A stretch of DNA of 64,000 bases from Tridacna crocea (lineage: Eukaryota > Mollusca > Bivalvia > Cardiida > Cardiidae), in contig OX031072.1 in NCBI GenBank assembly GCA_943736015.1, positions 12,117,501-12,181,500 of the forward strand, read 5' to 3'. Both the position numbers and the translations under genes were made by a program. The notes beneath the pieces are model-generated. The model saw only the letters and a list, made by a program, of their open reading frames with translations. It did not search any database and was not told where the DNA came from. Shown here piece after piece: positions 20,221-61,584 of this stretch (position 1 is the first letter of the stretch; every line of letters begins with the position of its first letter).

Positions 20221-22839
20221 ATGACGTCTACCGGCGACGTCGAATTGCGAAGTGTTGTGAAATTTTGTGTCGCGCTGGAAAAATCACCAACAGAAACGCT
20301 GAACATGATCAAATCTACAGGAAAATATAAAAAATGCAGCCCAGCTACTGTATATAAGTGGCATGCGCGTTTTAGAAGCGGACGTGATTCTATTGAGGAC
20401 GATCCTAGATCTGGTCGGCCGGCCGTCGTAGTGTGTTCAGTTAGGGATCGAGTGAAAGACATGGTAAATTGTGATAGGAGAATTACTGTCAGGTCGATTG
20501 CAGATGAACTCGATGTTTCGGTATCCACGGTGCATGGGATATTAACAGATGAACTGGGCATGTCTAAAGTTAGTGCGCGTTGGGTGCCCCGATTGCTCAA
20601 GGAAAGTGAAAAAGAATGCCGGGTGCGATGTTCACAGGAGTTTCTTACCCGCTACGAAACAGAGGGAGACGCATTTTTAGACAGGATTATCACCACGGAT
20701 GAGACCTGGCTGCACCACTTTGACCCGGAAACTAAGCGCATGTCATCGGTGTGGAAAACCCCGCGTACCCCTCCACCAAAAAAGGCTCGGGTCCAAAAAA
20801 GCGCAGGAAAACAGATGTTCGTTTACTTCATGGACCGGCACGGGATGCTATTACAGCACCGAATTCCAGAGGGCCAAACAGTCACAGCGGCATACTATTC
20901 TAAGGTAAATGATAAATAAACAAGAGCGGCAAACTGTCGCAAGATACGCCCGTCTTACCCCAAGTTGTAAAGCTGGGGCATGCACCAGACTAAATTCAAG
21001 TATGAAAAATGACAAAGGGCAGTAACTCAAAAATCAAGCGAGCAAGAGTTATGATTCCTGTGCACTGCACTCCCCCTTGATGAGATCTATCCACCCATGA
21101 AATTTCTTAACCCTAGCTAGTATAGTTATGGAGATATTCACCAGACAAAAATCAAGTATGAAAAACAACAAAGGGCAATAACTCAAAAATTAAGCAAGCA
21201 AGAGTTATGATTCCTATGCATTGCACTCCCCCTTGATGAGATCTATCCACCCATAAAATTTCATAACCCTAGCTAGTATAGTTTTGGAGATATGCTCCAG
21301 ACAAAAATCAAGTATGAAAAACGACAAAGGGCAATAATTCAAAAATTAAGCAAGCATGATTTATGGTTCTTATGCACTGCACTCCCCCTTGATAAGATCT
21401 ATCTACCTATGAAATTTCATAACCGTAGCTAGTATAGTTTTGGAGATATTCACCGGACAAAATTCAAGTATGAAAAACAACAAAGGGCAATAACTCAAAA
21501 ATTAAGCAAGCAAGAGTTATAATTTCTATGCACTGCACTCCCCCTTGATAAGATCTATCCACCCATGAAATTTCATAACCCTAGGTAGTATAGTTTTGGA
21601 GATATGCTCCGGACAAAATTCAAGTATGAAAAAAGACAAAGGGCAATAACTCAAAAATTAAGCAAGCAAGAGTTATGATTTCTGTGCACAGCACTCCCCC
21701 TTGATAAGATCTATCCACCCAAGAAATTTCATAACCCTAGGTAGTATAGTTTTGGAGATAATCACCGGACAAAATTCAAGTATGAAAAAAGGACAAAGGG
21801 CAATAACTCAAAAATTAAGCAAGCAAGAGTTATGGTTCCTGTGCACTGCACTCCCCCTTAGTGAGATCTATTCACCCAAGGAATTTCATAACCCTAGCTA
21901 GTATAGTTTTGGAGATATGCTCCGGACAAAATTCAAGTATGAAAAACGACAAAGGGCAATAACTCAAAAATTAAGCAAGCAAGAGTTATGGTTCCTCTGC
22001 ACTGCACTCTCCCTTGGTGAGATCTATCCACCCAAGAAATTTCATAACCCTAGCTAGTACAGTTTTGGAGATATGCTCCGGACAAAATTCAAGTATAAAA
22101 AAAGACAAAGGGCAATAACTCAAAAGTTAAGCAAGCAAGAGTTATGGTTCCTGTGCACTGCACTCCCCCTTGATGAGATCTATCCACCCATGAAATTTCA
22201 TAACCCTAGGTAGAATAGTTTTGGAGATATGCTCCGGACAAAGAACTGGACGCCGCCCGCCCGCCCGCCCGCCCGTCACGGGTGATCCCATAATACATCA
22301 CGTCTTCGACGGGCGTATAATAAATAAATAAATAAATAAATAAATTAAATAAATAAATCAATCAATCAAATAAATAACAAAAAATGAGATATTGATTTAC
22401 GCAAACCTAATGAACCGTGCATTTCTTTCTTTAGGTTCTGAGGCGGGATCTCGTTAACGCGATACGGAAGAAACGGCCCCACTTGAACCATGACCAAGTA
22501 ATACTACACCAGGATAATGCACCGGGACGCCGAGCGGAATCTACACAGCTAGAGATCACTCTGCTGGGTTTTGAGGTCTTGAAGCACCCACCATACAGTC
22601 CTGACCTCGCCCCCATGGATTTTCGCGTGTTCCCGGAGCTCAAGGCACAGTTACGCGGAATACGGTTTGATTCAGCTGACGACCTTACTAAACAAGCCCA
22701 AGCAGTTGTGTCGTCATTTTCTGAAGAGTGGTATGTAGAAACGTACACTAAGTGGATAAGCAGACATCGGAAATGCGTGGATCTTGCGGGTGACTATGTG
22801 GAGAAAGTGCGACGTTCGTTGGACTCAAATGACGCTTGA
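20221..22839 (+). CDS. Mariner transposase (DD34D), two exons
   Basis: Cut-and-paste transposase that binds the TIRs and cuts at TA. Exon 1 is 20221-20904 (228 codons) and exon 2 is 22435-22839 (134 codons plus stop), joined in phase 0 to 362 residues, close to the 345-355 usual for mariner. Visible parts: N-terminal helix-turn-helix with WHARFRSGRDSIEDDPRSGR (about residues 46-65); second HTH around ITVRSIADELDVSVSTVHG (about 87-105); linker WVPRLL; then the catalytic triad, D160 in TTDETW, D255 in HQDNAP and D290 in YSPDLAPMDF. Exactly 34 residues separate the last two aspartates, the mariner signature. No stop or frameshift occurs in either exon. The exon join (AAYYSK then VLRRDL) gives the contiguous family motif, which supports splicing. 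The start is the first ATG giving a normal mariner N-terminus. Most mariners are intronless, so the split is the oddity; without splicing the product would end four residues into the insert, before D255 and D290. Confidence 0.9.
20983..22243 (+). repeat. 156-bp tandem array, about 8 units
   Basis: Units contain, in order, AAAGGGCAATAACTCAAAAA, AAGCAAGCAAGAGTTATG, CACTGCACTCCCCCTTGATG, ATCTATCCACCCA and TTTTGGAGATATGCTCC. The anchor GACAAAGGGCA recurs near 21011, 21167, 21323, 21479, 21635, 21792, 21948 and 22104, giving a period of 156 (one 157). Units are highly alike, differing by scattered substitutions. A tandem core followed by a microsatellite, bracketed by short inverted repeats, resembles the bivalve non-autonomous Helitron/Helentron-type elements with tandem cores (pearl-like); the class is inference. 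Confidence 0.92.
22250..22378 (+). repeat. CCCG and AAAT microsatellites with hairpin end motif
   Basis: Downstream of the 156-bp array lies a (CGCC)n run (about 22251-22275), then GGGTGATCCCATAATACATC, the short stem GTCTTCGAC, GGGCGTATAAT, and an (AAAT)n/(AATC)n run (about 22320-22375). This looks like the right end of the element that fills the intron. Confidence 0.75.
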
Positions 22840-31720: not shown

Positions 31721-31771
31721 TATCGACTCTGGTCAGCCTGCGCGGATTGCGCAGGCTGACCAAAGTCGATA
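31721..31771. repeat. Family E hairpin
   Basis: TATCGACTCTGGTCAGCC ... GGCTGACCAAAGTCGATA: 23-bp arms with two mismatches and a five-base loop (GGATT). The core CAGCCTGCGC/GCGCAGGCTG is shared with hairpins at 39.24, 51.74, 52.26, 53.22, 63.65, 63.77 and 63.96 kb. Confidence 0.75.
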
Positions 31772-38592: not shown

Positions 38593-38790
38593 GTGAGACA
38601 AATAAATAATTTATACATACAGTAACTGTATTATATGAAGTAAATTATTATGGAAAGAAATGTTGCTAAAAACATTTTTAATTAAGATTATTATAGAAAT
38701 AATTTTTTCAACATGCAACATCATCATCACCACCATCATCATCATCGTATCTTTTATATCATTTTTGCACGCATCATGTTCCATCAACAT

Positions 38791-39017
38791 TTTTCCAAAA
38801 TGTTTACTGCCCTTCCAAATACAAATTTCAATTTTTGAGTCACATTTACTTTGTCGTCTGCAAAGGTGACTGCAAATGTTTTCAGTTTGGACAGGTCTAA
38901 AATTTTTGCCGTTTGTTAAAGATTTAAGGTGCACGATCGATCTTATACGTTATTATAATTTGTGTACTAGTATATTATAGAGAAATAAACGAGCCCTCTC
39001 TGACAGGACCTTGAAAA
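38791..39017 (+). mobile_element. 5'-truncated retrocopy of the LINE 3' tail
   Basis: Aligns over about 225 bp with the reverse complement of 55811-56037, the terminal part of the 55.7-61.1-kb LINE. It includes half a family A MITE (AAAATGTTTACTGCCCTT, GTGACTGCAAATG), TTTGCCGTTTGTTAAAGATT, CGATCGATCTTATACG, the poly(A) signal in GAGAAATAAACGAG and CTCTCTGACAGGACC, ending GAAAAAAAC. The homology starts abruptly inside the MITE palindrome and ends where the A-tail starts, as expected for dead-on-arrival LINE copies. No clear target duplication. Confidence 0.7.
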
Positions 39018-39069
39018 AAACATTTTATTATGAAATACTCGTTCTCTTGTCAACAGTGCGTCAGTCATA

Positions 39070-39330
39070 CATCGAAGCCACGCTCTGGCAAAAAGGGCTT
39101 AATGCATCTCTGAGATGCATTAAACCACGCAAGTCAACACACATTTATTAATCCCTTATGTCAAACAGTCGACGGGATCAGAAGATATAATTTAATAATG
39201 TCCTTTGCCATACAAAAAAGTTACGAGTAGCAAAAAGTTTCGACCCATGTCAGCCTGCGCGGAGTGCGCAGGCTGACATGGGTCGAATTTTTTTGCTGAT
39301 ACATAAAGCCCCCTTTTCAAAGGGTACGAT
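39070..39330 (+). repeat. Family E repeat with hairpin at 39241-39286
   Basis: Contains AAAAAGGGCTTAATGCATC, AGTAGCAAAAAGTTTCGACC and the near-perfect hairpin CGACCCATGTCAGCC ... GGCTGACATGGGTCG, followed by TACATAAAGCCCCC. The stem bases next to the core differ from the 31.7-kb copy but still pair. Confidence 0.65.
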
Positions 39331-45164: not shown

Positions 45165-45393
45165 TTAACCCTTTCCCAAACGGCAAGTTTTGGACCAGAC
45201 CAAATTAATAGCATTTTGCAGACTACAAATTGACAGTTGCTAAAATGATGATTTTTCTATATGATAAGATAAAAAACATTGTGGGAAAAGGAGAAAATGC
45301 TGGTTACCAGCATTTTCTCCTTTTCCCACAATGTTTTCAAAAGGTTTCTATTCCTGACCCGTGAAAACCAGGGATTGTTTGGGAAAGAGTTAA
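45165..45393 (+). mobile_element. Family A MITE, full length, perfect palindrome
   Basis: 229 bp, TTAA at both ends, left CCCTTTCCCAAACGGC, right GTTTGGGAAAGAG. The central palindrome is perfect, centred on GGTTACC. Internal left arm more diverged than in other copies. Confidence 0.88.
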
Positions 45394-55434: not shown

Positions 55435-55664
55435 TTAACCCTTTACCAAACGACAAAATTTTAGACTGGTCCAAAATGAAAGCTCTTGCAGACGACAAAA
55501 TAAACGCAACTAAAAAATTGAAATTTGTTTTTCAGCAGGGTAGAAAACATTGTGGGAAAAGGAGAAAATGCTGGTTACCAGCATTTTCTCCTTTTCCCTC
55601 AGTGTTTTCAGAAGGCTTTTTTCTCAGGGTCATCAAAAGTGGAGATTGAGTGGTAAAGGGTTAA
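55435..55664 (+). mobile_element. Family A MITE, full length, next to the LINE target
   Basis: 230 bp, TTAA at both ends, left CCCTTTACCAAACGAC, right GAGTGGTAAAGGG. Perfect palindrome around GGTTACC apart from the outer CCCTC. Its right half (from 55577) is duplicated at 61122-61208 as part of the LINE target-site duplication. Minus-strand LINE integration happened 46 bp past its right TTAA. Confidence 0.9.
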
Positions 55665-55710
55665 GTTATTTAGCAGGATAAGGGTAAACTTCCCTGCAGA
55701 TGCTTCTATT
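55577..55710 (+). repeat. LINE target-site duplication, left copy (134 bp)
   Basis: Identical by eye to 61122-61255. It starts at ACCAGCATTTTCTCC, the second half of the MITE palindrome, and ends at GATGCTTCTATT, where the T-tract of the LINE begins. Confidence 0.9.
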
Positions 55711-55783
55711 TTTTTTATTTATTTATTTTTTTTTATTTATTTATTTTTTTTTTTTATTTTTTTTTATTTTTTTTATTTTATTT

Positions 55784-55814
<31 letters not shown>
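55711..55814 (-). other. LINE poly(A) tail
   Basis: On the minus strand an A-tract of 104 nt with interspersed T (AAAT-like interruptions in the distal half). It abuts the left target duplication exactly. Confidence 0.85.
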
Positions 55815-55840
55815 CCCAGGTCCTGTCAGAGAGGGCCTCG

Positions 55841-55846
55841 TTTATT
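55841..55846 (-). promoter_or_regulatory. Poly(A) signal AATAAA
   Basis: Minus-strand GAGAAATAAACGAGGCC places AATAAA 26 nt before the start of the A-tail, the normal distance for cleavage and polyadenylation. The same signal is present in the 38.8-kb tail copy. Confidence 0.85.
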
Positions 55847-55896
55847 TCTCTATAATATAGTACACAAATTACAATAACATATAAGATCGATCGACC

Positions 55897-56139
55897 TTAA
55901 ATTTTTAACAAACGGCAAAAATTTTAGGCCTGCCCAAACTGAAAAAACATTTGCAGTCGCGTTTGCAGACGACAAAATAAATGTGACTCAAAAATTGAAA
56001 TTTGTATTTGAAAGGGCAGTAAACATTTTAGAAAAAGGAGAAAAAGCTGGTTACAGCATTTTCTCCTTTTCCCTCAGTGTTTTCAAAAACTCTCTTTCTC
56101 AGGGTCATTAAAATTCGGGCTTGTGTGGTAAAGAGTTAA
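55897..56139 (-). mobile_element. Family A MITE embedded in the LINE 3' end
   Basis: TTAA at both ends (55897-55900, 56136-56139). Plus-strand left end AACAAACGGCAAAAATTTTAG, right end TTGTGTGGTAAAGAG, palindrome slightly decayed (AAAAAGCTGGTTACAGC). A local duplication near TTTGCAGTCGCGTTTGCAG distinguishes it from other copies and is shared with 38791-39017. It lies inside the LINE insertion, upstream of its poly(A) signal. Confidence 0.85.
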
Positions 56140-56824
56140 TATATACCGTTTTGTTGGTTATGCGAATACTGCAGATCAGCATCAGAATGAGCAAAAATTC
56201 ATTCAGATCCTGATCCACAATTTCCGGTTTGACCTCTTCAGTATCGATCACCTCCTACTACGACTCTGAGATATATTGGATTTGGAGAACATTTTAGAAA
56301 AAAAAAAACTCAAAAAGATACATATCTTCGTTTCCCACCATGGTTCTTATCTTTTCATACTACTATATCTCAAGTATAACAATCACAATATTGCCGATTG
56401 CTGATGGCTTAATTTGGAATAGTCTGAAATTTGTCTATTGGGAAACGGTTAATTACACACTATTTTCAAAAAAAAAAAAAAAAAGTGGAATCTTTAAAAT
56501 TGCCTATCGGGAATAATTGATCTTTTTGTATATTCTGCCATCATAAAGGTATAGAGATTCAGTGGCTTGCCGGATAGGAGTGATCAAAATTATTCATAAT
56601 CTTGGTACTCCAACAGCACCTGGTTTTTCTAATATAAGAGTAATAACATTTATAATACAAACAAAGAACAGACAATATAAAATTGAAAAACGTATGGTTA
56701 AAAAGGGAAAAAAAAAACTATCCGTAGCCAGACTCTAGAGTAGTCAGTTTCGTTATGTTTTGTATATTCATTTGTATAATATGATATTCCTTTGCACCTC
56801 AGCATTTAAATACTCAAAAACAAT
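56140..56824 (-). other. LINE 3' untranslated region
   Basis: Between the ORF2 stop and the embedded MITE. Includes two family A-like scraps (about 56330-56455, with TTTCCCACCATGG and GTCTATTGGGAAACGG followed by TTAA) and a plus-strand A-tract at 56468-56484. The original end of the LINE before the MITE-bearing tail cannot be fixed from this one copy. Confidence 0.55.
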
Positions 56825-59497
56825 TCAGTCTATAAAAGGAGACCAGACAACATCCAACTGTTCTATAGACTCGTCGTGTTTTTCACTTAACAATACTTTA
56901 TTTTTTAAAATTTTGTATTGAAATGTTAAGTAGTTTTTTGCTCCTTGTAACGATGGTTTTACATTTATGTTCCTACATTTGAAAATGTACATTTTGAAAA
57001 GAATTAACAGCAAATTTTTCATTTTGCATGCGGATTCTATAAATCCAAATAACATGTTATTTAAAGTTAGATCTCCGTATATGTTGTGATGATTTAGTAG
57101 CATATTTCTAATTAAAGCTTGACTGTACCGGCATGTCCAGAAAATGTGTTGAATTGTTTCTGGAAATTGCTTACAGAAAGTGCATACAGAATTTTCAACA
57201 TAATTTATTTTGTACAGGTAACTGTTTGTGCCAAGAATTCTATGGATTAACCTAAATTGAAACCATCTTATATTAATATCACTTGTTACGGAGAAAGGTA
57301 AGAGGAAAATAGCCTCCAGGTTATCTTCAGTAAATTTAGTGGACAAAATTTCATCCCATTTCCTTATACATGTTGGAATTTCATTATTATTGTTTAAACA
57401 AGTATAAACTGATTTACAGCCTTTGCTGTCATTCAGTAAGGCTTTAAGGTAAGGCGGGAAGAAGGGTCTTTGAGTTTGTTTTAATTCTTGCTGTTTGACA
57501 TGGTATTTCTTTAAAGCTTTTTGAAGGGATGTTTTAATTCCTTGATATGTTAAATAATCAGATTTTACGTGGTATTTTGCCTTAAATTCATTATATTCCA
57601 TAATTGTGTTATTTATTGTTACTAGATCTATGCAGTTAATTCCAGCCTCAAACCATGACTTTATGAAAATACTTTTAAAACCAACTAGAATATCTGGATT
57701 AAAAAATAAAGGATATTCAAATATTTTTTCCTTTTTGACCGGTAACTTTTCGATTAGTTTAGAAAAAGCGTCAAATGCTTCTGCCCAAAAATTATTAGTA
57801 CATTTTTTTGAAACTAGTTCGAAAAAACACTGACCACAGAAGGGTAGTTTAGAAATATCGACATACATCTTGACTATTTCCGTCCATTTACTTTCACTAG
57901 TCATTAGTCGCCTGATCCAAGTAATTTTAAGCGAATTTACGAAAGCTTCTAAATTAATCATTTTCAGGCCTCCTTCATTATAATCTTTGATCATCACTGA
58001 TTGTTTAACCTTAAAAGATTTACCATAAACGAACGTGTTTAAAAGAGTCTTAAGTTTACGAAAATCAAGTTCTAATGGATTTGGAAGGGTTAAAAACAAA
58101 TGGTTAAGCTTTGAAATAAGCAAGTTTTTTACGATGACTATTTTACCAATGGGTGTTAAAATTCTTCTTCTCCATTTCCTTAAAGTTTCTTCGATTTCGT
58201 TAATCTTTTTACTGTAATTTAATCTGATCATTTTCGATAAATCGACATGAAATATGATGCCTAATAACTGGAATTGATGCTGATTCCACACTAGTTTCCA
58301 TCTTGTTTTAATAGTATCAGCGCTGTATTTTTTCTTTCCTATCCAAATAACCTGTGTCTTATCAAAGTTAACATTAAGGCCTGAAATTACTGAAAATTTG
58401 GAAAGTGTGGTAAGAGTTTCATTTAAGGACTCACTTGAACCATCGAGACAAATGCTGGTGTCGTCAGCGAATTGGGAAAGTTTGTATTCGGTGCCATTTA
58501 TTTTAATACCTTTTATTTTAGGATTTGATCTAATTTTAATTGATAAAATTTCTGCACAAAGAATGAAAATGTAACAAGATAAAGGGTCTCCTTGTCGACA
58601 ACCTCTTTCGACTTTGAAGAAATCTGAGAGGAACCCACACTGTGATACAGTTGACTTTGCATCTTTGTAGAAAACATTAAACCACTTCTGTATTGAGGGT
58701 CCAAAATTGAAAAGATTTAGTGTTTTGTTAATGAAAGACCATGAAAGGGAATCAAAGGCCTTTTCAAAATCAATTAAAAGTAAAATGCCGGGTATGTTAT
58801 TTTCCTCAGTATAGTGGAGTATATCGTAGATCAGTCTAATATTCTCTCCAATATATCGACCTTTTATGAAACCAGTTTGGTCACTTTTAATTAGCAATGG
58901 TAGTAATGGTTTTATTCTGTTTGCAATTACACCGCTTCCAGTTTTATACACGGTATTAAGTAACGTAATTGGACGCCAATTTTTAATATATTGTTTTGGT
59001 TTGTCACCTTTTGGTATGCACGTAATTAAACCCTGTGTTTGAGTATCGGATAATTTGTTTATATGAAATGCTTCATTAAGACTTCTTATTACAAAATGCC
59101 CTATTTTTTTCCAAAAGACTTTATAAAAGTCAGCACTAAAGCCATACGTACCAGGACTACGGTTATTTTTCATATTTTTTAAAACTAGTGCTGCTTCTTG
59201 AATTGAAATTTCTCCCTCAATAGCGTCTGATTGTTGATCATCTAAGGTTGGAATGTGTAAGTCATTAAGAAAGTCATCGTTACTATTATCAGAATCAATA
59301 CATTTGCCTTTGCTATATAGTGATGCATAAAAACTCTTAACTTCATCTAAAATTTGCTTTTGATTTGAAACTTCGGTACCATCATCTTTAACTATTCTAC
59401 GGATAGTTTTTATGGACGAATTTTTCTTTTCCAAACCACAAAAATAACTACTAGGTTTCTCGCCATCTAAACTCCACTTTGTTTTTGATCTAATCAT
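56825..59497 (-). CDS. LINE ORF2, reverse transcriptase part
   Basis: 890 residues from an ATG directly after the stop of the endonuclease part, in the same frame; in L1/Tx1 elements the two are one protein. The start IRSKTKWSLDGEKPSSYFCG is the conserved pre-RT linker, so this ATG is an internal codon rather than a natural start. RT signatures in order: RSPGTYGFSADFYKVFW (about 114-130; the usual GTDG Asp is Tyr), WRPITLLNTVYKTGSGVIAN (about 173-192), LLIDFEKAFDSLSW (motif A, about 243-256), GCRQGDPLSCYIF (motif B, about 303-315), QFADDTSICLDG (catalytic motif C, about 346-357), then LGIIFHVDLSK. Near the C-terminus CTFCKQFPETIQHIFWTC is the CCHC-like zinc motif of L1-type ORF2. The catalytic FADD is intact. 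The enzyme would copy element RNA at nicked target DNA. Confidence 0.9.
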   Translation of the reverse strand: MIRSKTKWSLDGEKPSSYFCGLEKKNSSIKTIRRIVKDDGTEVSNQKQILDEVKSFYASLYSKGKCIDSDNSNDDFLNDLHIPTLDDQQSDAIEGEISIQEAALVLKNMKNNRSPGTYGFSADFYKVFWKKIGHFVIRSLNEAFHINKLSDTQTQGLITCIPKGDKPKQYIKNWRPITLLNTVYKTGSGVIANRIKPLLPLLIKSDQTGFIKGRYIGENIRLIYDILHYTEENNIPGILLLIDFEKAFDSLSWSFINKTLNLFNFGPSIQKWFNVFYKDAKSTVSQCGFLSDFFKVERGCRQGDPLSCYIFILCAEILSIKIRSNPKIKGIKINGTEYKLSQFADDTSICLDGSSESLNETLTTLSKFSVISGLNVNFDKTQVIWIGKKKYSADTIKTRWKLVWNQHQFQLLGIIFHVDLSKMIRLNYSKKINEIEETLRKWRRRILTPIGKIVIVKNLLISKLNHLFLTLPNPLELDFRKLKTLLNTFVYGKSFKVKQSVMIKDYNEGGLKMINLEAFVNSLKITWIRRLMTSESKWTEIVKMYVDISKLPFCGQCFFELVSKKCTNNFWAEAFDAFSKLIEKLPVKKEKIFEYPLFFNPDILVGFKSIFIKSWFEAGINCIDLVTINNTIMEYNEFKAKYHVKSDYLTYQGIKTSLQKALKKYHVKQQELKQTQRPFFPPYLKALLNDSKGCKSVYTCLNNNNEIPTCIRKWDEILSTKFTEDNLEAIFLLPFSVTSDINIRWFQFRLIHRILGTNSYLYKINYVENSVCTFCKQFPETIQHIFWTCRYSQALIRNMLLNHHNIYGDLTLNNMLFGFIESACKMKNLLLILFKMYIFKCRNINVKPSLQGAKNYLTFQYKILKNKVLLSEKHDESIEQLDVVWSPFID

Positions 59498-60604
59498 TCA
59501 ACCTTTTAATTTGTCTTCTGTTATCTGTTGTAACTCTTTTTTTAATAGTTCTAGTCTTTCTGAATTAATTTCTGATAAATTTTGTTCCAGTGAAATAATT
59601 TCTTGTTTAATTTTTTCTTCGCGTTTTCGTGATGTTTTTTTCTTGTAGGAACTATATGATATTGACTTCCCTCTTATTTCCATTAGTAATGTGTCTAAGA
59701 ATAATTGGTCATTTATAGTAAATTGCAAAATATCAGGAGGTATATCTTTCAATGATTCTCTACTGTATACAGGTAGGGCATATTGTTCTATGACATCATC
59801 TATTTTTTTATTAATTGTATGAATATATTCAATGTCTTGTAGCAAGGAATTATTGTGTTTCCAAAGGCCTGAAATGTATTCAAATTCATTGAATATATAA
59901 GTTGTAGATATGATGGAATGGTCAGAAAGGTAACTATGTTCAATAGATGATTTAACAATATTGCTAGAAAGTTCAGTTGAAACAAGAAAAAAATCCAAAC
60001 GCGCTTGCTGAATAGGGTTAATTTTTCTCCATGTATAAAGTCTAGTTTCCGGGTTGAGTTCGCGGAATGGGTCTATTAGCTGCCTGTTTTCAATGATTTC
60101 CCTCATATGATTTCTAGCGTTTTTATTATTGATGTGTTTATAATTTTGATAGTCTAACTCAGGATTTAAAACTAGATTAAAATCACCACAAATCATAAAG
60201 GAATCATTACCAATGTAATCTAGTTTCTCAAAAAGATTTGTGTAAAATTGTGGATTATCTTGATTTGGTCCATAAATTGATGCCAATGTAAACCTGTGAT
60301 TATCAATGGTTAAATCAAGTATAACGTAGTTTCCTTCCGAGTCTAAAAGTGATTTGTGTATTTCATAATCCAGATTTCCAAATAATATGGCAACTCCCCT
60401 ACTTTGTGAAGTATTACAACTCAAGAAAATTTCATTACCCCATTCTGAGTATATAGTATTGTACATATCATTAGTAAAATGGGTATCCTGTAAACAGTAA
60501 ATATTATGTTTCAAATTTTTAAGATGGTGAAAAACTGATATACGTTTTTTCTTAGTGTGGATTCCTCTACAGTTAAAAGACATTATATTCAGATTCCGTG
60601 GCAT
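59498..60604 (-). CDS. LINE ORF2, AP-like endonuclease part
   Basis: 368 residues (start MPRNLNIMSFNCRGI), an exonuclease-endonuclease-phosphatase family nuclease that nicks target DNA to prime reverse transcription. Visible signatures: SFNCRGI (about 9-15), CLQDTHF (about 36-42; the usual Glu of LQETH is Asp), SRGVAILF (about 68-75), YGPNQD (about 110-115), ICGDFNLVL (about 138-146), RLDFFLVS (about 206-213) and LSDHSII (about 228-234). The C-terminal third is a charged, helical linker leading to the RT. The frame is closed by TGA (59500-59498), immediately followed in frame by ATG and the conserved linker to RT. This is most simply a single nonsense change in one ORF of about 1,259 codons. 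As it stands the copy would make endonuclease without RT unless read through. Confidence 0.88.
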   Translation of the reverse strand: MPRNLNIMSFNCRGIHTKKKRISVFHHLKNLKHNIYCLQDTHFTNDMYNTIYSEWGNEIFLSCNTSQSRGVAILFGNLDYEIHKSLLDSEGNYVILDLTIDNHRFTLASIYGPNQDNPQFYTNLFEKLDYIGNDSFMICGDFNLVLNPELDYQNYKHINNKNARNHMREIIENRQLIDPFRELNPETRLYTWRKINPIQQARLDFFLVSTELSSNIVKSSIEHSYLSDHSIISTTYIFNEFEYISGLWKHNNSLLQDIEYIHTINKKIDDVIEQYALPVYSRESLKDIPPDILQFTINDQLFLDTLLMEIRGKSISYSSYKKKTSRKREEKIKQEIISLEQNLSEINSERLELLKKELQQITEDKLKG

Positions 60605-61121
60605 GTCTGTCGCAATAATGATAGGACGTCGATTTTTGTAACGAAATCAAGTACTGGTCTAAGTCTGGCAGACGGGTAAAGTAACATATATACAAAACAG
60701 ATTTGAAATACATGGAAAATGATACAAATTGCAGAAGTTCACTCGAATAACTGAATCAAGAAATAATTATCACATACAAGTAATTTATTTATCGGTGATA
60801 AATTCTTTAGATTAGTATGTAATATTTAGTCTGAGATTGACTAGCAAAGTACTTCATAAAAATAGACAATAAGTGTACTTTTAACGTATTTTTGCCCCCC
60901 CCCCCCCCCAAAAAAAAAAAAAAAAAAAAAAATCATAGAAACCAAGAATAATTTTCAACACAGAAATTCCAATACAACATATGTTCTCGTTTCATAAAAA
61001 AGCTTCCAATAATGGTTTCTTTAAAATCCATCCATGAATAGGTAGTGTAAGGAGTTGGGAGAAACTAAACAAAATGTACATCAGAGAAATGGTAATAAAT
61101 GTAACTCAGAAAAAATCAGAG
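60605..61121 (-). other. LINE 5' leader, no ORF1
   Basis: No open frame resembling an L1/Tx1 ORF1 is found upstream of the endonuclease. The plus strand shows a C-tract then an A-tract (60896-60934). The segment ends exactly at the right target duplication. Confidence 0.6.
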
Positions 61122-61255
61122 ACCAGCATTTTCTCCTTTTCCCTCAGTGTTTTCAGAAGGCTTTTTTCTCAGGGTCATCAAAAGTGGAGATTGAGTGGTA
61201 AAGGGTTAAGTTATTTAGCAGGATAAGGGTAAACTTCCCTGCAGATGCTTCTATT
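61122..61255 (+). repeat. LINE target-site duplication, right copy (134 bp)
   Basis: Identical by eye to 55577-55710: half a family A MITE, its TTAA, then TTAGCAGGATAAGGGT to GATGCTTCTATT. The half MITE here is therefore not a separate transposition event. Confidence 0.9.
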
Positions 61256-61329
61256 GATGTCTCTGACATTCAAAGGGTCATTCCTAAGTCATTTGTCATT
61301 CAAACTGAGCTATTTTTTACCAGACGAAA

Positions 61330-61584
61330 AAAATGTTAGACCCGTCCATATTGAAAACATTTACAGGCGTAAAATTAAGCGTGACTCATTTACTAATGAG
61401 CTATGCTATGGCGAAAGGGGATTTAACACATCTCCGAGACGAATGGTATCAATTTAAGCTAGTCATGACATGATCATTGACTCAATCATGAACTAGAACG
61501 GTCCTTTGACATCCAGAAAACTGACCAAAAGCCAAAAGTTTCGCGAAATAGCCAGGCTGATCGGAATTGGTGTCTAGGAATAGG
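61330..61584 (+). repeat. Family A scrap and decayed family E repeat
   Basis: 61320-61360 carries AATGTTAGACCCGTCC and GAAAACATTTACAGGCG (family A left half). 61410-61575 matches family E order (GGCGAAAGGGGATTTAACAC, ACCAAAAGCCAAAAGTTTCG, CAGGCTGATCGG) but its hairpin has decayed. Confidence 0.45.

Follow-up and report, generated by a model that had tools for sequence, protein, structure and literature searches.

Within the 64,000-nt stretch of Tridacna crocea DNA analysed here (the window), an L1-like LINE insertion of 5411 bp lies on the minus strand at 55711–61121, between two direct repeats on the plus strand (55577–55710 and 61122–61255). Upon alignment the two copies were identical at 134 of 134 positions, as an earlier note on this DNA had claimed, the match could be extended by 0 bp to the left and 0 bp to the right, and both ends of the LINE directly adjoined the exact repeat. 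The left copy consists of the right part of a MITE (of a family referred to here as family A) and 46 bp outside it. Since the final TT of the plus-strand copy can be assigned to the poly(T) tail as well, the target-site duplication (TSD) measures 132–134 bp, which lies outside the range of about 5–30 bp expected of an L1-like element. The 3′ tail, by comparison, was as such an element would have it, namely an impure poly(A) of 104 nt on the minus strand (55711–55814; A runs with T interruptions), placed directly against the left TSD copy, again as claimed earlier. We scanned both strands of the window for exact direct repeats of at least 9 bp beside A-runs of at least 8, with the partner up to 8000 bp upstream, and obtained 23 pairs, the LINE-flanking pair measuring 134 bp and the runner-up 11 bp; in the control, 10 shuffles of 20-base blocks, the longest pair measured 16 bp. 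The 134-bp duplication is not due to chance, and the complete identity of its copies suggests that the LINE inserted recently.

The LINE carries an ORF2 that is split into two open pieces by one in-frame TGA at 59498–59500: an APE-type endonuclease part of 382 codons (59501–60646, minus strand; first in-frame ATG at 60604) and a reverse transcriptase (RT) part of 890 codons (56828–59497, minus strand) with a zf-RVT domain. The best PDB matches of the endonuclease piece were L1 endonuclease or ORF2p chains (E 5e-24 to 3e-20), followed by APE-type nucleases near 1e-4, and its two Pfam Exo_endo matches scored under the gathering scores. The RT piece matched RVT_1 (3e-31) and zf-RVT (2.7e-6) in Pfam and, when compared with solved structures only, L1 ORF2p (E 4e-53) and R2 (6e-19). 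Judged by these matches to solved structures, the element is L1-like in both its endonuclease and its RT, a label that derives from the closest solved structures rather than from a tree and covers the L1 or the Tx1 clade. Searches of a viral contig collection gave 0 relatives of the RT fragment and 0 matches to the pattern of the LINE 3′ end, results of little weight given that the collection is viral.

No ORF1 was seen, the 475 nt upstream of the ORF2 frame holding no stop-to-stop frame of more than 60 aa on the sense strand; a 5′ truncation would explain its absence, and the element is either 5′-truncated or furnished with a long 5′ leader. When the 189 nt at the LINE 5′ end were compared with the window by blastn, no match was found elsewhere. 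A homopolymer junction, C15–A23 on the plus strand (T23–G15 in the LINE sense), lies at 60895–60932; as this T/G tract is set 189 nt in from the 5′ end, it has no simple match to the 5′ poly(T) structures described in the available text of PMC2837659. A 5′ inversion (twin priming) found no support either, as a blastn comparison of the LINE with the window revealed no inverted self-match in the LINE beyond a hairpin at 56033–56070, and all that nhmmer added was a weak match to family A in inverted orientation (56247–56452).

The target of the insertion was a family A MITE of 230 bp (TTAACCCTTTACC...GGTAAAGGGTTAA; 55435–55664, plus strand), which is intact to the left of the LINE and possesses TTAA at both ends and inverted termini of 13 bp, TTAA included. 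We take the family to be piggyBac-type. Within the MITE is a perfect inverted repeat (55554–55598), composed of two perfect 22-bp arms around T55576 (GGGAAAAGGAGAAAATGCTGGT-T-ACCAGCATTTTCTCCTTTTCCC), and it is the part of the MITE to the right of this palindrome centre that recurs after the LINE. The far edge of the duplication lies at 55576/55577 and is offset from the palindrome axis at T55576 by half a base, in agreement with the earlier note, which had it begin one base past the centre. On the minus strand, the one that would need to be cut second for a minus-strand LINE, the edge is GCTGGT/AACCAGC and is found within the 3-nt loop of a predicted hairpin, the 73-nt stretch around the palindrome having a predicted fold of -31.0 kcal/mol (DNA parameters), though microhomology at the 5′ junction with the 5′ sequence of the progenitor could place the actual cut a few bases away. 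Relative to the MITE, the putative first nick is located 46 bp outside and the putative second cut inside.

A search of the window with a family A profile in nhmmer returned several tens of rows, double hits of the palindrome included, and a partial match lies at 61316–61405, 60 bp past the right TSD copy. A family A copy at 45273–45337 has a perfect palindrome with 32-bp arms, the longest of the perfect hairpins counted. Another strong hairpin with 22-bp arms, at 39239–39287, has a TCAGCCTGCGCGGA motif in common with a hairpin at 31746 and gave no match to the family A profile. The palindrome pattern had 0 matches in viral contigs and genome contigs, which carries little weight since these collections are viral and prokaryotic. 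Scans of the window for tRNAs and for Rfam families (at the gathering threshold) gave 0 and 0, and a tandem array made up of 8.1 copies of a 156-bp unit, with 92% matches, occupies 20980–22242.

Besides the long element, the window yielded one further LINE copy, a 5′-truncated copy of the 3′ end (38790–39020, plus strand), 91% identical over 234 columns and flanked by a TSD of 8 bp (AACATTTT, at 38786–38793 and 39019–39026). This LINE family therefore does not always make long duplications. As regards a shared target, which would mark a target-specific LINE of the R9 or Tx1L type, just these two insertions were compared, one being placed 46 bp beside a MITE and reaching into it and the other in a CATCAACATTTTT context. 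Another family A copy is found within the 3′ region of the long LINE (55896–56139, plus strand), and the portion of it 3′ of the truncation point is present in the short copy too (38790–38928). Given that both LINE copies share this part, the LINE carries the very repeat family at a copy of which it landed, and the family A MITE appears to have been taken up into the retrotransposon and to travel along with it. The short copy breaks off 3–7 nt (a range due to shared Ts) inside the stem of an RNA hairpin predicted for the LINE 3′ region, which belongs to the family A copy at 55896–56139; truncation at such a point would fit stalling of the RT, making this stem a possible stall site.

As for the length of the duplication, the earlier note had set 134 bp against the roughly 7–20 bp usual for L1-type elements. 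The available text of two papers gives a TSD peak of 14–16 bp for full-length L1 (PMC2912911, where only TSDs of 5–30 bp were collected) and, for human L1, a median TSD of 13 bp (PMC12016303); a third limited its TSD search to 10–49 bases (PMC13295347). The length alone is less odd than claimed, as TSDs of more than 100 bp are known for L1: according to the available part of PMC5223499 they never exceed 10% of L1 events in HeLa cells, but make up 3/9 events in complemented XPD cells (XPD+) and 4/7, 21/23 and 22/28 events in XPA-, XPC- and XPD-deficient lines, respectively. In having such a TSD the present element resembles human LINE-1, where HeLa cells show it in a minority of events and NER-deficient lines in most, and it further resembles LINE-1 in its APE endonuclease, its RT related to L1 ORF2p, its poly(A) tail and a first nick that would follow a T-rich stretch. 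It differs in that the far edge lies at a palindrome centre; the available text of PMC5223499 accounts for long TSDs with no appeal to hairpins.

To what extent the position of the edge is surprising depends on how landmarks are counted. Under four definitions, the 64 kb contain 7, 13, 15 or 20 comparable palindrome centres, and the probability that a random edge falls no more than 1 bp from one of these is 0.0003–0.0009, before allowing for the choice of landmark; for an edge anywhere within 500 bp of the first nick near the palindrome, the chance is ~0.006 (3/500). Pure coincidence is improbable at the window-wide figure, although the palindrome centre was picked as the landmark after the fact and for a single event, and if several landmarks were possible the chance rises to a few per cent. 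We regard the placement of the edge as suggestive for one case, not as proof. The claim that the second-strand break occurred at a hairpin tip is compatible with the data, yet it is a post hoc reading of one case, with no second example, and the 8-bp TSD of the other LINE copy in the window counts against it.

Whether family A centres are fragile in general was assessed in 26 aligned family A loci, in which internal deletions of at least 6 bp were counted and terminal gaps dropped. At one copy (38108), a 41-bp deletion starts at the palindrome centre, within the ambiguity of a TT. Among the 16 copies with an identity of at least 0.77, a cut set after viewing the table and with gaps placed by one aligner setting, 9 carried deletions, and in 3 of these 9 an edge lay no more than 3 bp from the centre (P 0.04 when counted by copy and 0.013 when counted by edge); when all 26 loci were taken, the figure was 3 of 16 (P 0.23 by locus, 0.11 by edge). 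With the tolerance set at 1 bp, the counts were 2/9 in the better copies (P 0.05) and 2/16 in all loci (P 0.18), and at 5 bp they were 3/9 (P 0.10) and 3/16 (P 0.42). The tendency of MITE deletions to gather at the centre is weak and is lost once all 26 loci are taken, which counts against the hairpin reading.

That the LINE arrived by target-primed reverse transcription (TPRT), as the earlier note proposed, is well supported, in that a tail against one copy and a duplication from a staggered cut both fit. We tentatively favour, at somewhat less than an even chance, a single TPRT insertion of an L1-like LINE with a long stagger whose edge was set by the hairpin of the MITE palindrome. From the arrangement of the locus we infer two nicks, their order, the extrusion of the hairpin and the nuclease that opened it. 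The plus strand would have been nicked at CTTCTATT/GATG, where the LINE tail would prime cDNA synthesis, and the minus strand would have been cut 132–134 bp away, at GCTGGT/AACCAGC, leaving a 3′ overhang to be copied into the 134-bp duplication. A hairpin formed by the MITE palindrome on an exposed or replicating strand would be the likeliest single account of where this edge lies, its loop being opened by a host hairpin nuclease of the Mre11/Sae2 type or, alternatively, the T/A step beside the hairpin bubble being nicked by the endonuclease of the element itself.

In favour of an opened hairpin, yeast MRX/Sae2 attacks palindrome hairpins whose loops are shorter than 9 nt (PMC8053094, available text); the palindromes treated there are Alu and gene-sized inverted repeats. 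Such repeats are larger than 22 bp, which counts against the comparison. The present locus resembles the opening of palindrome hairpins by SbcCD or MRX-Sae2 in offering a short-loop hairpin as a break site; it differs in the outcome, which there consists of breaks and gross rearrangements at palindromes and not of the second cut of a retrotransposon. Concerning the element's own enzyme, human L1 EN is described in the accessible part of PMC12809410 as sensing DNA structure and acting faster near ends and hairpin bubbles; it cut duplex DNA and left single-stranded segments without cuts, and this enzyme would thus not be expected to cleave within the loop. The choice of the second-strand cut by LINEs is presented as an open problem in the available portions of PMC2881922 and PMC12809410.

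The same locus could have arisen by ordinary TPRT with a long stagger, the minus strand being nicked at an unrelated distal site and the coincidence with the palindrome centre being fortuitous, and this we consider quite possible, if short of probable. Human L1 is known to produce TSDs above 100 bp, for which the authors of PMC5223499 suggest, in the part available, an unrelated nick placed more distally; the minus strand has 9 T/A steps in the 170 bp examined, and the cut GGT/AACC is at one of them; and the base of the stem, the ends of the MITE or nested copies would have seemed striking landmarks too. Weighing on the other side is the small chance, both window-wide and over the 500 bp beside the first nick, that such a nick would come within 1 bp of the centre. 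Improbable in our estimation is an origin with no second-strand endonuclease cut at all, in which a polymerase, either the RT or one of the host, reached the end of the LINE RNA or cDNA and switched to the minus strand at the hairpin, or in which a fork collapsed at the hairpin and its repair joined the cDNA there. For R2, the available text of PMC6895275 models a template jump to the upstream target that precedes cleavage of the second strand, and that of PMC12809410 treats replication forks, where hairpins can form, in connection with L1 target selection; the 5′ junction, however, displays no visible microhomology in the sequence of this copy (GCTGGT/CTCTGA versus GCTGGT/AACC). By sequence alone, this origin and a cut at the hairpin are indistinguishable.

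Least probable is a 134-bp tandem duplication that already existed and received the LINE at its boundary, or an artefact of assembly. Palindromes do cause local rearrangements, and MITE copies are dense here (26 loci aligned), but the LINE would have had to hit the boundary exactly and without a duplication of its own, the tail and the 5′ end each adjoining a copy exactly, and an assembly join is not expected to coincide with both LINE ends. Returning to the cut at a hairpin tip, it accounts economically for the edge, but the hairpin is unneeded for length as such, given the TSDs above 100 bp of human L1 and the 126-bp TSD cited for R9 of bdelloid rotifers in the available text of PMC6895275, which is of similar size to that seen here. 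R9 and the present element differ in that the second copy of this LINE has an 8-bp TSD. R9 is specific to rDNA, and its TSD is fixed by its site.

Among the matches listed in a search of open-licence literature (titles and abstract starts), none tied LINE TSD edges to palindrome centres, and an edge at a hairpin apex may be new. The titles listed include one dealing with a LINE of Dictyostelium together with a palindromic rDNA element (PMC5391098) and one dealing with LTR elements and palindromes (PMC6911290); in the available text of PMC4229983, NF1 deletion breakpoints showed no excess of inverted repeats. Long TSDs are already known for elements of this kind, and the link to a hairpin, attractive as it is, stands as an unproven one drawn from a single case. 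The broader proposition, that extruded hairpins can supply the second-strand break, that duplication length is then governed by how far the first nick lies from a nearby palindrome centre and that densely scattered palindromic MITEs thereby offer LINEs places for the second cut, we consider rather unlikely. If hairpins do not fix the cut, the locus would be one more LINE insertion with a long TSD, and a usefully clean example of it; if DNA hairpins do fix the second cut, duplication length would be predictable from sequence, and this would be testable in genomes rich in palindromic MITEs.
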